A stretch of 57,468 nt of DNA, from positions 1 to 57,468 of the IMG/VR virus record IMGVR_UViG_3300023276_000855; one strand, 5' to 3'. Made by a program: the position numbers and the translations under genes. The notes under the pieces are model-generated. The model was not told where the DNA came from. It saw nothing but the letters and a program-made list of their open reading frames with translations, and made no database searches. This DNA is from a virus. This document shows positions 4,135-43,308 of the stretch, piece by piece. Each line of letters starts with the position of its first letter. Position 1 is the stretch's first letter.

Positions 4135-4164
4135 AACCTAATCATTGAATTGATTAGGTTTTTT
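4135..4164 (+). terminator. Intrinsic terminator fused to a downstream promoter-like leader
   Basis: AACCTAATCA-TTGAAT-TGATTAGGTT followed by TTTT. Immediately downstream is GGGTGAATCCTATAAATA and the SprT-like start, the same terminator-leader arrangement as at 10697. Confidence 0.85.
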
Positions 4165-4171
4165 GGGTGAA

Positions 4172-4195
4172 TCCTATAAATATATTATCCCTATG
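4172..4195 (+). promoter_or_regulatory. CCTATAAATATATTA leader element
   Basis: CCTATAAATATATTATCCCTATG contains a T4-late-like TATAAATA and ends in an ATTA-CCCT-ATG type start. Closely similar sequences precede the starts at 10753, 8344 and 10305. Confidence 0.55.
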
Positions 4196-4750
4196 TCTCA
4201 AATCACAAAATCTCGTATCATTAAAAGCATCCAAACTCGCGTTGAAGAATGTATTGTCCAAGCTGAAAAGTATTACAATAAGTCATTTGAACGTCCAAGA
4301 GCTATCATTTATAAAGAAAATGGTACATGTGGGGGATGGTCTAACTATAGTACAAGGGAACTGATGTTTCAGATTGATCTTATGCGTCTCAACTTTGATG
4401 AATATATGAATGTTATAATTCCCCATGAAGTTGCACACTGGGTTCAAGGTAGTTTATATCCTTATTCCACATCACATGGTCGTGAGTGGAAAAGTATAAT
4501 GGTTAAATGTTTTAACCTTCCACCTGAAAGATGTCATTTCATGGATACTACACAAATCAAGTGTAAACAATATACAAGATTTGAATTGGATTGTTCATGT
4601 GGTCACGTCCATAATCTTACAAAACGCATATCTAAAGTTGTGCTTACTTCATCTACACGTTATCGCATATGTAGTTTATGCAAAACTCGCATCACTAAAC
4701 ATATGTTTAGAATGAGTGATGAATTTATCACATTTGCAGCAACTCTCTAA
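4193..4750 (+). CDS. SprT-like zinc metalloprotease
   Basis: 185 aa. HEVAH at residues 78-82 with a third His at about 95 (SHGREW) matches the zinc site of SprT/Spartan-type proteases. The C-terminal part has a Cys-x-Cys-Gly-His...Cys-x-x-Cys zinc ribbon, also usual for SprT-like proteins. Spartan enzymes cleave proteins cross-linked to DNA; phage versions are uncharacterised. The start at 4193 follows the conserved TATTATCCCT leader; the longer frame reads through the upstream terminator. Confidence 0.85.
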   Translation: MSQITKSRIIKSIQTRVEECIVQAEKYYNKSFERPRAIIYKENGTCGGWSNYSTRELMFQIDLMRLNFDEYMNVIIPHEVAHWVQGSLYPYSTSHGREWKSIMVKCFNLPPERCHFMDTTQIKCKQYTRFELDCSCGHVHNLTKRISKVVLTSSTRYRICSLCKTRITKHMFRMSDEFITFAATL

Positions 4751-4782: not shown

Positions 4783-5286
4783 ATGAAAACACTCCAAGAA
4801 ATTTATAACTTCATCATTCCTACAATCTTTGAAAAGAATGATCAATGTACCAGCCAAGGCGGCTCATGTGTATATGACAACAAATTGAAAGATAGTCAAT
4901 GTTTAGTTGGACGCTGCATTCTTAAAGAACATAGAGGAACTGAGTATGAAGGGAGTGGACTTATACAAGTCACTGATTGGGATATGAAACATAATGAGAC
5001 TGAGTATAAAGGTTCTCTAAAGGAAGCATTATTCAAGTCAGGTATTGATACAGATGACGAAGATGTATATTCCCTCCTTGAAAACTTTCAATCCTTTCAT
5101 GATGATTATACTTCAGCAGGAGGTATGATGCTTAACTTTGATGAACCTCTTCATTTTGAGCAAGACATTGATTACCTAAAGACGATTGGTATCGAATTCA
5201 ATCTTGATGTATCAATTGTTGATAAATGCATCATTGCTAATACAGATAAGTATAGTGATGCTCTTAAAGAAACTTTCACAAAGTAA
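4783..5286 (+). CDS. Unknown protein, paralogue of the gene at 10753
   Basis: 167 aa. Shares with the 10753 gene a Met-Lys-Thr start, a Cys-rich region leading to CLVGR-x-IL (near residue 40) and a Leu-x-x-Ser-Gly-Ile-Asp-x-Asp-Asp ... FHD segment. The spaced Cys (CTSQGGSC, then C before LVGR) could hold a metal. An acidic helical region lies in the middle. The duplicated family in one small-gene cassette suggests a host-directed function that benefits from divergence. Confidence 0.7.
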   Translation: MKTLQEIYNFIIPTIFEKNDQCTSQGGSCVYDNKLKDSQCLVGRCILKEHRGTEYEGSGLIQVTDWDMKHNETEYKGSLKEALFKSGIDTDDEDVYSLLENFQSFHDDYTSAGGMMLNFDEPLHFEQDIDYLKTIGIEFNLDVSIVDKCIIANTDKYSDALKETFTK

Positions 5287-5573: not shown

Positions 5574-6023
5574 ATGAAAGATTTAATTATTGCATCCATC
5601 AAGAAATGGAAAGATAGCGATGATATTGGCATAATGACAAACATTGAGGTTGAGGGTGTATATATTTGTAAGTATTTAAGAAATGAATATGTAAGTAACC
5701 CAACCAATAGGGCACATTGTATGGTTCATGGATGACCTGCCGTTATTGTATCTACAGTTGTGGATACTGATGAAGAGATGAATGCTGATTATGAAGTCTT
5801 GAATAGTTTTCCATATCAAGCATATCAATATGCCATTCAATATGTTTGGCATAAACACAACCCAATTAAATTGGGGGGAGATAGTATGTACTTTTCCAAC
5901 CTAAGAATTGAGAAAGGTAGAGAAAAGCTTATTAAGTTCTTTGAATCTCTTAATGAGGAAGAGTGGGATTATATTAAGAACGGAAGAAAGAAACTATTAA
6001 AGGATAGAACCGATGGAGAATAA
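5574..6023 (+). CDS. UGA-interrupted gene A, probable readthrough product
   Basis: The first reading segment (5574-5735, 53 aa) ends at UGA (5733-5735). The same frame continues without another stop to the TAA at 6021-6023, giving a 149-residue fusion if UGA is read. The continuation has no nearby ATG (the next is 5778), and begins Pro-Ala-Val right after the UGA. The C-terminal part (KGREKLIKFFESLNEEEW) closely resembles that of the gene at 6574, which has an in-frame UGA at the matching place, GGA-UGA-CCW-GCC. A 7-bp hairpin starts 12 nt after each UGA. Readthrough as Trp (G-W-P-A) is the simplest reading; two separate proteins remain possible. Confidence 0.65.
5748..5767 (+). promoter_or_regulatory. 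Recoding-type hairpin downstream of UGA, gene A
   Basis: GTATCTA-CAGTTG-TGGATAC forms a 7-bp stem with a hexaloop, 12 nt after the UGA at 5733-5735. It has the same loop, stem length and spacing as the hairpin at 6760-6779 but a different stem sequence. Confidence 0.7.
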
Positions 6024-6570
6024 TATTATTAATAATCAAATGAGTCTGCAACAGATTCAAGATATCTTAAATGACCACACCAACATTATTACAATACATA
6101 ATAGTAATGAGGAACTGTTCAAAACTATGCGAGCCAATGATCTAATGGTTTGTGTGAATTCAGGCTATATATATCTAGCAGATCTTGATCTAGATAATAA
6201 ATATCCCATTGATGAATATAGAATTAGTTGGGGATTTACAACAATCAATGCTATTGAATCAGAAAGAAGAGATAGTTATAAACCATCAAGTGAACATTTT
6301 GTATTGGATAAGGAAGCAAGACAATGGAGAATGGTGTCAGGTGGGCATGATTGTGTATCATGTGGTGATATTGATATGGTATGGAAGGCAAACATTAAGA
6401 AAGTTGTCTTTGGTAGCTGGGAATTCACTAGGGATGATATTAATACCATGAAGCTTATGCATGATAGATTTGATATTAGTGTAGAAGACGAAGAACTGGA
6501 AGAACCCTCAACACATAGTGATGGATGCAATTGTACACATGATTGTAATTGTGACGATATACCTTTTTAA
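6013..6570 (+). CDS. Unknown protein with SSB-like C-terminal tip
   Basis: 185 aa, starting inside the end of gene A (ATGGAGAATAA overlap); an alternative ATG lies at 6040. The body is unrecognised and contains VSGGHDCVSCGDIDMVW. The tail is acidic (SVEDEELEEPS), then a Cys-rich stretch (DGCNCTHDCNC), ending in Asp-Asp-Ile-Pro-Phe. That ending is the canonical tip by which bacterial single-stranded DNA-binding protein recruits repair and replication enzymes. The protein is not an evident OB-fold SSB, so it could be a mimic that captures SSB partners. It sits between the two UGA-interrupted genes. Confidence 0.65.
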   Translation: MENNIINNQMSLQQIQDILNDHTNIITIHNSNEELFKTMRANDLMVCVNSGYIYLADLDLDNKYPIDEYRISWGFTTINAIESERRDSYKPSSEHFVLDKEARQWRMVSGGHDCVSCGDIDMVWKANIKKVVFGSWEFTRDDINTMKLMHDRFDISVEDEELEEPSTHSDGCNCTHDCNCDDIPF

Positions 6571-6573
6571 GAT

Positions 6574-7002
6574 ATGGAAAAACTAATAAAAGAAGTAAAG
6601 GAACGTATTAAGAATACACTTGATACATGGACTGATGGTACATATGCAATCATTCGGGATGAAGTATTAACTAAGGAGTTATCAGTTGCAGGTTGCCCCC
6701 TAGGTATAACGCAAGATACAAGGGAATCCATCTTTGAAAAGGGATGACCAGCCATGATTATTCCAGCAGTTGTTGGAATTATGGATATTTCATATGTATC
6801 AAGTAGTTATCAAAATGCTATACAAGATCTATGGGAAGATAAAGGGTATAATGAAAATGATACATATGATGATTTTACATATGATGAGTATTCATACTAC
6901 TTCAGACTAACTACTCCAAAAGGTAGGGAACATCTACAAACATTCTTTGACTCCCTTACAGATGAAGAGTGGGTAACATTAATTAATACAAAGGAAAAAT
7001 AG
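6574..7002 (+). CDS. UGA-interrupted gene B, paralogue of gene A
   Basis: The first segment (57 aa) ends Glu-Lys-Gly-UGA (6745-6747). The same frame continues Pro-Ala-Met-Ile-Ile-Pro-Ala-Val-Val to TAA at 7000-7002, for a 142-residue fusion if UGA is read. The continuation also has an ATG at 6754, so reinitiation is possible here. The C-terminus (PKGREHLQTFFDSLTDEEW) matches gene A. The matching placement of UGA in two diverged paralogues argues against a chance nonsense mutation. Confidence 0.65.
6760..6779 (+). promoter_or_regulatory. Recoding-type hairpin downstream of UGA, gene B
   Basis: ATTCCAG-CAGTTG-TTGGAAT: a 7-bp stem (one G-U) with the CAGTTG loop, 12 nt after UGA. Five of seven base pairs differ from the gene A hairpin yet all still pair. 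Confidence 0.7.
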
Positions 7003-7200: not shown

Positions 7201-7671
7201 ATGGAGAGAAATGAGAGAATTGAAGAATATGAAAAGGAAATTCGTACAGAAAAAGGAATTTCTGATGATGTAGTAATTGATGTACATGAAGTTGCAGAAA
7301 TGCATAGAGATGTATTTGATGCATTCATTGGATGTTTACAAAAGATAAGTGCTATAAAAAGAACTTCAATTACAGATAGAAATGATGGAAAAGATTTTAA
7401 TATACCTAGTTCAGATGTAGTTGTAACTGATACTAAACATGGAATTGGATTAGTTATGGTTGTTGATGAAGTGGAGTTTTTGGATGATACATGGGAAGTT
7501 ACATGTGTAGCTACACACGGAACTACTTTTGAAGTATTAATATCATTGGAAGATGCAGTAATGACAAAGGATTCAGTAATTATACAGACTTATGGAGAAC
7601 ACACAGTTTCTTTTCAGTTAATAGAAGTATTAGATATTGCAGGAGTAAAGGATATTACAGAGGAAGATTGA
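7201..7671 (+). CDS. Acidic hypothetical protein, 156 aa
   Basis: Strongly acidic (about one residue in four is Asp or Glu). The N-terminus is helical (ERNERIEEYEKEIRTEKG) and the C-terminal half consists of beta-like segments (VVVTDTKHGIGLVMVV, TVSFQLIEVLDIAG). No family recognised. It ends with TGA and a long non-coding stretch follows. The acid charge could mean a DNA mimic, which is only a guess. Confidence 0.65.
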   Translation: MERNERIEEYEKEIRTEKGISDDVVIDVHEVAEMHRDVFDAFIGCLQKISAIKRTSITDRNDGKDFNIPSSDVVVTDTKHGIGLVMVVDEVEFLDDTWEVTCVATHGTTFEVLISLEDAVMTKDSVIIQTYGEHTVSFQLIEVLDIAGVKDITEED

Positions 7672-13335: not shown

Positions 13336-13512
13336 ATGGAAACTATAAAGAACTTCCTTATTGCTACTATCATTGTCGCCTTGCTCTTGTGGGCTGGCAG
13401 TGATGGCCAGAACAGTCCAGTCGGTCTGATTGAAAGACTGGATTTTGATGTCGATGCTGCTGCATACGACACTATGCAAAGACTTAATAACCTTAATAAC
13501 CTAATAAAATGA
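13336..13512 (+). CDS. Small single-pass membrane protein, 58 aa
   Basis: A hydrophobic N-terminus (residues 7-20, FLIATIIVALLLWA) suggests a signal anchor in the inner membrane. The rest is polar and ends in an Asn/Leu-rich NLNNLNN-like stretch. It overlaps the next gene by ATGA and is driven by promoter copy 14. Function unknown. Confidence 0.6.
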   Translation: METIKNFLIATIIVALLLWAGSDGQNSPVGLIERLDFDVDAAAYDTMQRLNNLNNLIK

Positions 13513-13718
13513 GAATATTCCACTTTGTTCAGACAATTAGACTCAATGAGGATAGTGATCCTTTATTGAATCATGATATAGGGGCAATGATTTGTCCACA
13601 GATTCCTTCTAATAAGGAGGCTATTTCATATAGAGACGGCTACATTTTAGAATGGGTAAGGATAATTGACCTGCCCCCAAGACTCAGACAACACTTCGTT
13701 AGTGTATTTCTTGAGTGA
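13509..13718 (+). CDS. Hypothetical protein, 69 aa
   Basis: Coupled to the preceding membrane protein gene through ATGA. No transmembrane segment. Contains HDIGAMICPQIPSNKEAISY. No family recognised. Ends with TGA, showing that UGA is a normal stop in this genome. A long hairpin follows. Confidence 0.6.
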   Translation: MRIFHFVQTIRLNEDSDPLLNHDIGAMICPQIPSNKEAISYRDGYILEWVRIIDLPPRLRQHFVSVFLE

Positions 13719-31077: not shown

Positions 31078-31151
31078 TGGCAAGTTGTCTCAGGTTCGAA
31101 CTGAGGATAAAAGTTTTGGAGACTTTTGTGTTACCGCTACACTAACAACTT
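31078..31151 (-). tRNA. tRNA-Trp(CCA)
   Basis: Perfect acceptor AAGTTGT/ACAACTT, D-stem GTGT/ACAC, anticodon loop CTCCAAA (anticodon CCA), T-arm CTCAG-TTCGAAC-CTGAG, discriminator G, encoded CCA. Position 24 is A (pairing U11), the base that in Escherichia coli turns tRNA-Trp into a UGA suppressor. Confidence 0.95.
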
Positions 31152-35583: not shown

Positions 35584-37539
35584 TTACACTAGGTTGCCTA
35601 ATGATAGAGTCTTAATAGTACCTGCATCATTGTAATCCATGTATACTGCAACTCCATCAACTCGGAAGGATTTCATCCCAACTGCTAATGTTCCATCAAC
35701 TTCATAACCTGCCGCCAATGCACTTGCTGTTGGTGCTGTTGCAGTGTCTTTGACTGTCTCTGCTACCATACCATCACCATGAATACGAACTGATCCACCA
35801 CGAACAGTGGTGCTTGACCAGTAACCATGCTCTTGACAGTTATTGATAGCTACTTGGATGCTTCTTCCTCCTGCTACTGAATAATCACCACTAACTGTAG
35901 AAGCTTTACCACTAGCTGTAGAATAATTACCACTAGCTGTAGAACCACTACCACTAGCTGTAGAATAAGTACCACTAGCTGTAGAACTATAACCACTAGC
36001 TGTAGAATAATTACCAATAGCTGTAGAATAATAACCACTAGCTGTAGAATAATTACCAATAGTTAAAGAACTTTGACCACTAGATGTGGAAAAAATACCA
36101 CTAGCTGTAGCACCAGCACCACTAGCTAAAGAATAATCACCACTAGCTACGGAACCATAACCACTAGCTGTAGAATAATTACCACTAGCTGTAGAAGCTT
36201 TACCACTAGCTACAGAATAATTTCCCCAAGCTTTTGAATCTTTACCACTAGCCACTGCATGGTCACCCTTTTCAACTGTTGGGTTTGCTGGGTTGTGTGT
36301 TACTGCGCCATCACCACTAGCTATAGAATGATAACCACTAGCTGTAGAAGCTTTACCACTAGCTGTAGAATGCTCACCGATTGCATCAGAACCACTACCA
36401 CTAGCTGTAGAATAAGTACCACTAGCTGTAGAACTATAACCACTAGCTGTAGAATAATTACCAATAGTTAAAGAACTTTGACCACTAGATGTGGAAAAAA
36501 TACCACTAGCTGTAGCACCAGCACCACTAGCTAAAGAATAATCACCACTAGCTACGGAACCATAACCACTAGCTGTAGAATAATTACCACTAGCTGTAGA
36601 AGCTTTACCACTAGCTACAGAATAATTTCCCCAAGCTTTTGAATCTTTACCACTAGCCACTGCATGGTCACCCTTTTCAACTGTTGGGTTTGCTGGGTTG
36701 TGTGTTACTGCGCCATCACCACTAGCTATAGAATGATAACCACTAGCTGTAGAAGCTTTACCACTAGCTGTAGAATAAACACCACTAGCTGTTGAGGCAC
36801 TACCACTAGCTGTAGATTCATCGCCAATAGCATTAGAACCCCAACCACTAGCTACAGAATGAAAACCACTGGCTGTGGAACCATTACCACTGGCTGTAGC
36901 ATAATTCTGACTAGCTGTAGAGCCAAGACCACTAGCTATAGAAGCAGTGCCACTAGCTGTACCACCGAATACTGACACACCATTATTAGTTGCGTCCCAT
37001 ACATCACCTGTGTTAGTGCCACTTGTGTTAGCTAGTCGATTCTCATCAGCGAGTGGATAAGATCTTTTTGCGGTGTTTAAACCTATGGCAGAGTTTTGTG
37101 TGGTCTGCTCCGATTGTAGATCACCTACATCGGTTCCAAGTTGCCCAATGTCCCCTTCGATGGCTGATAAATCTTGATCGCCTGTGTTAGTACCACTTTG
37201 ATTACTTAAATTTGTTTTTTCACTATCTGTGAATGCATTAGTGTTAGCATTATTTTCATAAGCTGTTTTGATTTGTGCGTCTGTTTGATCACCAGTAGCA
37301 CCAGATTCAATGGTGTCTAGTTTGGTCTTATCCCCATCTTGAAATGCACCTTCTGAAGGCTTTACTTGTAGTGCTGAGAGGTCTTGATCGCCTGTGTTAG
37401 TACCAGATTGATTAGCTACTACTGCGGTATTTGCAGAAACCTCTGATATAATAGTACCTAAATCAATACCCTCCCTAAACTCTTGTCGCTGAGATGCGCT
37501 TAGGGATGGAAGATATTCCGTTATGAAGAATTTGGACAT
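35584..37539 (-). CDS. Tail fibre / adhesin with YadA-head-like repeats
   Basis: 651 aa. An N-terminal part with QSGTNTGDQDLS repeats (residues about 43-200) is typical of phage fibre shafts. Residues about 200-560 consist of about 30 seven-residue-step repeats of the type 'Ser-x-Ala-Ser-Gly-x-Tyr', the left-handed beta-roll of YadA/Hia head domains, which form trimeric host-binding surfaces. The C-terminus (SVRIHGDGMV...VDGVAVYMDYNDAGTIKTLSLGNL) is likely the trimerisation tip. A block of about 340 bp is duplicated almost exactly within the gene. Late promoter CTAAATA upstream. Confidence 0.85.
   Translation of the reverse strand: MSKFFITEYLPSLSASQRQEFREGIDLGTIISEVSANTAVVANQSGTNTGDQDLSALQVKPSEGAFQDGDKTKLDTIESGATGDQTDAQIKTAYENNANTNAFTDSEKTNLSNQSGTNTGDQDLSAIEGDIGQLGTDVGDLQSEQTTQNSAIGLNTAKRSYPLADENRLANTSGTNTGDVWDATNNGVSVFGGTASGTASIASGLGSTASQNYATASGNGSTASGFHSVASGWGSNAIGDESTASGSASTASGVYSTASGKASTASGYHSIASGDGAVTHNPANPTVEKGDHAVASGKDSKAWGNYSVASGKASTASGNYSTASGYGSVASGDYSLASGAGATASGIFSTSSGQSSLTIGNYSTASGYSSTASGTYSTASGSGSDAIGEHSTASGKASTASGYHSIASGDGAVTHNPANPTVEKGDHAVASGKDSKAWGNYSVASGKASTASGNYSTASGYGSVASGDYSLASGAGATASGIFSTSSGQSSLTIGNYSTASGYYSTAIGNYSTASGYSSTASGTYSTASGSGSTASGNYSTASGKASTVSGDYSVAGGRSIQVAINNCQEHGYWSSTTVRGGSVRIHGDGMVAETVKDTATAPTASALAAGYEVDGTLAVGMKSFRVDGVAVYMDYNDAGTIKTLSLGNLV
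36031..36371. repeat. Intragenic direct repeat, copy 1
   Basis: Nearly identical to 36436-36776, offset 405 bp (135 codons, in frame). Recombination between copies would remove or add 135 residues without a frameshift. Confidence 0.85.
36436..36776. repeat. Intragenic direct repeat, copy 2
   Basis: Second copy of the 36031-36371 block. Both include the distinctive non-repeat insert with THNPANPTVEKGDHAVASG. Confidence 0.85.
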
Positions 37540-42966: not shown

Positions 42967-43308
42967 ATGAAAGATAAAGAAGACCTATCAATCAAATCAG
43001 ATATTAAGTTTGCAGGTATCACAATTGCAGCATTCTTTGTAGTATTGTACCTAGCAAATGTATTAAACGCTATTTTTCCTGCTCTAGCACCGTTAAATAT
43101 TGTGGATTTTGCAGTAACAATATCTAAAATTGGTGTAGCATCAGCATCAGCTTGGCTATTAATCAAAATGGCATTCAAAAACACCATTGGAAGATCAATT
43201 GGTAAAGTATTTGATGCTGGTTGGGAACTATTAAGTTCCGAAGAAAAAGCTAGGTGGTGTATTGGAGCATTTTTGGCTCTATTTCTATCTATTGCAATCA
43301 TGTCTTAA
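42967..43308 (+). CDS. Holin-like membrane protein
   Basis: 113 aa with three hydrophobic segments (about 16-40, 46-67 and 96-112) and charged loops. Starts after GATAAATAATACTATG. Its place between the spanin-like and lysozyme genes, with TAATG coupling to the latter, supports a holin role. Confidence 0.7.
   Translation: MKDKEDLSIKSDIKFAGITIAAFFVVLYLANVLNAIFPALAPLNIVDFAVTISKIGVASASAWLLIKMAFKNTIGRSIGKVFDAGWELLSSEEKARWCIGAFLALFLSIAIMS

Follow-up and report, generated by a model that had tools for sequence, protein, structure and literature searches.

Two neighboring genes of an uncultivated phage each contain an in-frame UGA at the same place, which raises the question of whether this codon is a genuine stop or is translated and, if translated, as which amino acid. 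The window (the whole stretch of DNA analyzed) is a 57,468-base IMG/VR record. It encodes a T4-type major head protein, a scaffold protein and a class I ribonucleotide reductase, which mark it as part of the genome of a T4-like phage. By its major head protein the window is closest to uncultivated phages, and identity to cultured T4-like phages is ~32%.

Both genes lie on the plus strand. In copy 1 (5574–6023), 53 codons with frame 0 as the best coding score end at a UGA (5574–5735, UGA at 5733–5735), and a further 95 codons follow up to a TAA stop (5736–6023); this end overlaps the following gene, which starts at 6013. Copy 2 (6574–7002) has 57 codons up to its UGA (6574–6747, UGA at 6745–6747) and 84 codons beyond it, ending in TAG (6748–7002). 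The original prediction had noted the context GGA-UGA-CC(T/A)-GCC in both genes and a frame that stays open to a common C-terminal part. Both points hold: the contexts are GGA-UGA-CCU-GCC and GGA-UGA-CCA-GCC, respectively, and the parts after the UGA match each other at E about 1e-8. With the UGA translated, the full-length products would have 149 and 142 residues.

The gene between the copies (6013–6570, plus strand, 185 aa) is unrelated to them, carries a Cys-rich tail (CNCTHDCNC) and has no detected homologue. Another neighboring gene, at 4783–5286, was considered as possible kin of the UGA genes, and no kinship was found. About 1 kb upstream of copy 1, the gene at 4163–4750 encodes an SprT-like metallopeptidase, judging from an HEVAHW motif read in the sequence.

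Evidence for translation through the in-frame UGA

A DNA pattern encoding the C-terminal motif GRExLxxFFxxLxx[DE]xW, from which the UGA was left out, was run against IMG/VR, and a single contig answered (IMGVR_UViG_3300038299_000184, 127,787 bases; hereafter L164). Its gene (L164:7936–8364) encodes 142 residues with one in-frame UGA in the context GGA-UGA-CCU-GCG, and the protein matches that of copy 2 before as well as after the UGA (E about 1e-18, 38% identity). The L164 phage is also T4-like, with a head protein 43% identical to that of the window. A further contig from the same sample as the third homologue (IMGVR_UViG_3300038299_000180) encodes a head protein identical to the window's over the part present (402 residues), which places close kin of both phages in one habitat. 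Peptide repeats of the Ser-Thr-Ala-Ser-Gly type, encoded by short DNA repeats in a window gene at 35907–36816, recur at L164:8429–8476; there they form the start of a gene for a Ser/Thr-kinase-like protein directly downstream of the third homologue.

The UGA, its flanks, the spacing and the loop of the downstream hairpin are kept between the two copies and L164 at about 40% protein identity. An alignment of homologues had been proposed together with the original prediction as a way to see whether the UGA is replaced by a sense codon; in L164 it is kept. Unrelated proteins on either side of the UGA had been named as one outcome that would speak against the prediction, and instead homology extends over both sides, L164 included. 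The case for a translated UGA, weak on two paralogues alone, is stronger with an independent homologue that keeps UGA, spacing, loop and predicted pairing.

No further family members were found in profile searches covering about 100 records of related phages, in a covariance-model search of 50 records, or in INPHARED, PLSDB plasmids and cultured T4-like phages, and single-protein and two-sequence scans of IMG/VR returned no homologue; the family is rare or poorly sampled. Several apparent matches were set aside. With a DNA pattern combining UGA and loop, one hit in a GC-rich phage (L083) was a chance match, and four matches in genome contigs were without homology to the family. Weak covariance-model matches in four relatives (G009, G022, G028 and G034) showed no homology by protein profile searches and apparently lie in another reading frame, and weak fold matches in three cultured phages were not borne out when their whole records were searched with a profile.

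Translation through the UGA is very likely in these genes, judging from their coding signal and conservation. In each of the three genes, coding statistics rank frame 0 first before as well as after the UGA, and the frame stays open for 95 (copy 1), 84 (copy 2) and 79 (L164) codons. Elsewhere in the window UGA is a normal stop: 17 of the 103 called ORFs end in it, with open extensions of at most 23 codons, and when the window was screened for UGAs flanked by coding signal before and after, exactly two sites emerged, 5733–5735 and 6745–6747. These counts show no genome-wide reassignment of UGA to sense. Three ORFs had originally been cited as examples of normal UGA termination; two of them (7201–7671 and 13509–13718) do end in TGA, whereas the one ending at 43308 stops at TAA.

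Were the UGA a real stop, each locus would consist of two ordinary genes, the downstream part starting anew by translational coupling (ATG 6754 in copy 2, GTG 5760 in copy 1). Copy 2 does have this in-frame ATG three codons past the UGA, preceded by AAGGG. In L164, however, no ATG, GTG or TTG occurs until codon 51, yet conserved residues begin directly after the UGA, and the first start in copy 1, at codon 9, lies within the 3′ arm of the hairpin, behind most of the conserved block. This block, G-U-P-A-x-[IV]-[IV]-x-[TA]-V-V, begins at the UGA itself, so reinitiation cannot account for its conservation. The N- and C-terminal parts also remain joined in all three genes, and we consider separate genes highly improbable. 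Still less credible is that the UGAs are mutations in degenerate genes or assembly mistakes: all the sequences are metagenome assemblies, but three genes that have diverged from one another, in two phages, share the position of the UGA, and past it both the coding signal and the homology continue. Frameshifting at the UGA was rejected, the +1 and -1 frames, read in the sequence, closing within about 3–21 codons.

The hairpin downstream of the UGA

The predicted hairpins, which had been placed 12 nt after each UGA with a CAGUUG loop, were recovered at 5748–5767 (copy 1, stem GUAUCUAC/GUGGAUAC) and 6760–6779 (copy 2, stem AUUCCAGC/GUUGGAAU), both on the plus strand. As also predicted, five of the seven stem pairs differ between the copies and all still pair; four of them differ on both sides. 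In the minimum free energy (MFE) fold of all three sites, the stem gains an eighth pair, an invariant C-G, that leaves AGUU as a tetraloop; in copy 1 this loop starts 20 nt after the UGA. In L164, the CAGUUG loop starts 19 nt after the UGA on a CCCAA/UUGGG stem.

In the three-way alignment (n = 3), 95.8% of pair cells hold standard pairs, compared with 33–58% after the partners are shifted. Both sides have changed in four of the eight stem pairs, and one column pair (21–36) reads A-U, U-A and C-G in the three sequences. The stem changes alter the encoded amino acids (VSTVVDT, IPAVVGI and IPTVVGG), so the pairing is not explained by protein conservation. A stem of at least 6 bp with the same offset and loop length in all three copies arose in 5e-5 of dinucleotide shuffles. 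Folding energies of the 44-nt stretches are modestly low overall (z of -3.0 and -3.8, and -0.95 in L164, which is not low). The evidence for the presumed selection on the hairpin is covariation, not stability. None of the 13 natural UGA stops tested has a hairpin of this SECIS-like kind downstream.

Candidate residues at the UGA

On balance, we favor the reading of this UGA as selenocysteine by means of a bacterial-type SECIS, which on present sequence comparisons appears likelier than leaky readthrough. The published bSECIS model (PMC13188914) comprises a loop of 3–9 nt, a stem of 4–16 bp, a UGA-to-loop distance of 16–37 nt, an MFE of -7.5 kcal/mol or lower and a G in the first two loop positions. 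All three sites fall within every one of these bounds (loop 4 nt, stem 6–8 bp, distance 20 nt, and -11.7, -13.8 and -11.9 kcal/mol), as do 4.6% of all 2,426 UGA triplets in the window versus none of the 13 natural UGA stops. With the same code, E. coli fdnG and fdoG pass, and fdhF fails the strict version owing to an interrupted stem. In the MFE structure, AGUU has its G where the model places it; with an open C-G pair, the CAGUUG hexaloop has its G in third position, outside the model. A SelB site would be expected to have a conserved loop with G-U, and by this analogy we regard the present one as putative.

The protein points the same way. The UGA residue stands within one of the most conserved blocks, with G-U-P-A invariant, while the segment upstream varies freely. 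Two fold models were obtained (mean pLDDT 64–67), and the better one (mean pLDDT 67, pTM 0.71; moderate confidence) places the UGA at the junction of two helices within one fold. Conservation at the UGA, its position inside a fold and the conserved loop together suggest a needed residue over a regulated extension, and hence selenocysteine over leaky tryptophan insertion.

Several of the usual accompaniments of selenoproteins were not seen. A Cys-containing homologue, the usual selenoprotein hallmark, was not found in phage, plasmid and IMG/VR searches, nor was a Trp-coding one in the same searches; all detected homologues carry the UGA. The three proteins have no conserved neighboring Cys (CxxU or UxxC). 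No tRNA-Sec scores above the Rfam cut-off in either phage record, so host selenocysteine machinery must be assumed. Rfam gave no SECIS family match up to E = 10 and no family convincingly matching the region, and protein family, PDB and fold searches returned no match and no known selenoprotein fold for the UGA genes. A suspected resemblance to NinX proteins ("WPII") was unsupported by Pfam. Relative to E. coli, the loop G and U are displaced by 2 nt away from the UGA, which counts against selenocysteine, and the case is built on only three sequences.

The original prediction favored programmed stop-codon readthrough of a leaky UGA-C, with a short form of 53 or 57 aa and a long form. In this rival reading, a near-cognate tRNA, most likely tRNA-Trp of host or phage, would decode the UGA at some frequency, helped by the 3′ hairpin; the major product would be the short form (53, 57 or 62 aa), and the long form, minor, would contain Trp. 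The weak stop context UGA-C is present here together with open extensions of 95, 84 and 79 codons; the A1 protein of phage Q-beta offers a precedent. Both gene-carrying phages also encode a tRNA-Trp(CCA) with A24, the base found in the Hirsh UGA suppressor of E. coli, paired as U11-A24 in the window (31078–31151, minus strand); that of the L164 phage has C9 as well. The substitutions G24A and A9C make E. coli tRNA-Trp better at reading UGA (PMC13092985). The two phage tRNAs (31078–31151 and L170:6245–6318) share U43 in addition to U11-A24, bases that, like C9, are tied to UGA decoding by the E. coli tRNA. However, A24 is common in natural tRNA-Trp and a tRNA-Trp is also carried by relatives that yielded no copy of the gene, so suppressor-type bases are only suggestive of an alternative decoder. 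Readthrough also leaves the loop conservation and the fit to all bSECIS criteria unexplained, and the short form would be a single predicted helix followed by low-confidence residues (21–53), poorly conserved. What stands of the original reading is programmed translation through the UGA with a probably selected hairpin; leaky Trp readthrough with functional short and long forms is not the best fit, and Trp insertion, though less likely than selenocysteine, is its main rival.

Hairpin-driven translation might also proceed by another route (a phage factor, another tRNA or RF2 exclusion), inserting a residue that is neither selenocysteine nor tryptophan. The conserved RNA element leaves room for this; on the other hand, no candidate factor was found and the hairpin-dependent UGA redefinition known in bacteria is that of selenocysteine, so such a route seems unlikely.

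In the favored selenocysteine model, the two genes would be translated in full, into 149 and 142 residues, with the UGA redefined, and the SECIS hairpin inside the coding sequence, 12 nt downstream of the UGA, would be the redefinition signal. During infection, the AGUU loop would serve as the docking site for host SelB loaded with host Sec-tRNA, which would supply selenocysteine when the UGA occupies the A site. The small, mostly helical protein (motif [HK]-G-U-P-A-x-[IV]-[IV]) might use this residue for redox chemistry or metal binding. We infer selenocysteine as the residue, the host machinery and the use of selenocysteine by the protein alike.

A second, unrelated UGA-C gene was noted in the L164 phage (L175:1885–2340; record G051, 101885–102340), with 73 and 77 codons before and after the UGA, a frame-0 coding signal in both parts, a stretch of 52 codons past the UGA free of starts and a SECIS-like hairpin (loop GUCA, 21 nt after the UGA). 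No homologues were found, and as a recoded gene it is a candidate only, since the same screen gives a few false positives with UAA.

Comparison with known recoding systems

Together, these observations incline us to the view that T4-like phages of uncultivated bacteria have a phage-specific selenoprotein family, duplicated in the window, with its own bacterial-type SECIS recruiting host SelB and Sec-tRNA, and that selenoprotein genes may not have been described in phages before. A literature search, thin on subscription journals and without preprints and so not proof of novelty, found no report of a phage selenoprotein gene. If the residue is selenocysteine, phages encode selenoproteins, infection would depend on the selenium status of the host, and such genes escape viral gene finders in which UGA can mean nothing but a stop or Trp. 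If it is tryptophan, the locus would be a case of hairpin-stimulated programmed readthrough in a dsDNA phage. Either way, annotation mis-splits the gene, and the RNA element would be a compact recoding signal.

Phages with reassigned stop codons exist, and they likewise read a stop codon as sense; here, in contrast, UGA is a normal stop for many genes and single sites are recoded. The bacterial SECIS genes E. coli fdnG, fdoG and fdhF resemble the phage genes in having an in-frame UGA followed by C and a hairpin just downstream within the coding sequence with a small G-U apical loop. The UGA-to-loop distance is 19 nt in fdnG and fdoG and 20 nt here, and the stretch downstream folds with a similar energy, -12 to -14 kcal/mol. 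The present candidates differ from them in being phage genes, in a protein family without match or detected Cys homologue, and in an AGUU loop closed by C-G.

The original statement that no such phage example was known needs a slight correction, as UGA readthrough was first found in the RNA phage Q-beta (PMC8310308). The A1 coat readthrough protein of Q-beta is likewise a phage gene product with an in-frame UGA and a coding extension. Q-beta is, however, an RNA phage, and its extension is added to a complete, abundant coat protein, whereas here the upstream part is short and poorly conserved and a conserved, covarying hairpin lies downstream.

Viral selenoproteins are known in poxviruses (PMC8310308). 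The fowlpox GPx4 selenoprotein is, like the candidates here, a viral gene product using host selenocysteine machinery with a SECIS within the coding sequence (PMC8310308), but its SECIS is of the eukaryotic type and the protein is a recognizable enzyme acquired from the host. Basilisk-like Bacillus phages encode a tRNA-Sec, in its authors' words the first such gene in phages, and the excerpted report names no selenoprotein gene (PMC6145125); the present phages, conversely, have candidate selenoprotein genes and no detected phage tRNA-Sec. Common to both are a link between a phage and selenocysteine decoding and a tRNA-Trp.
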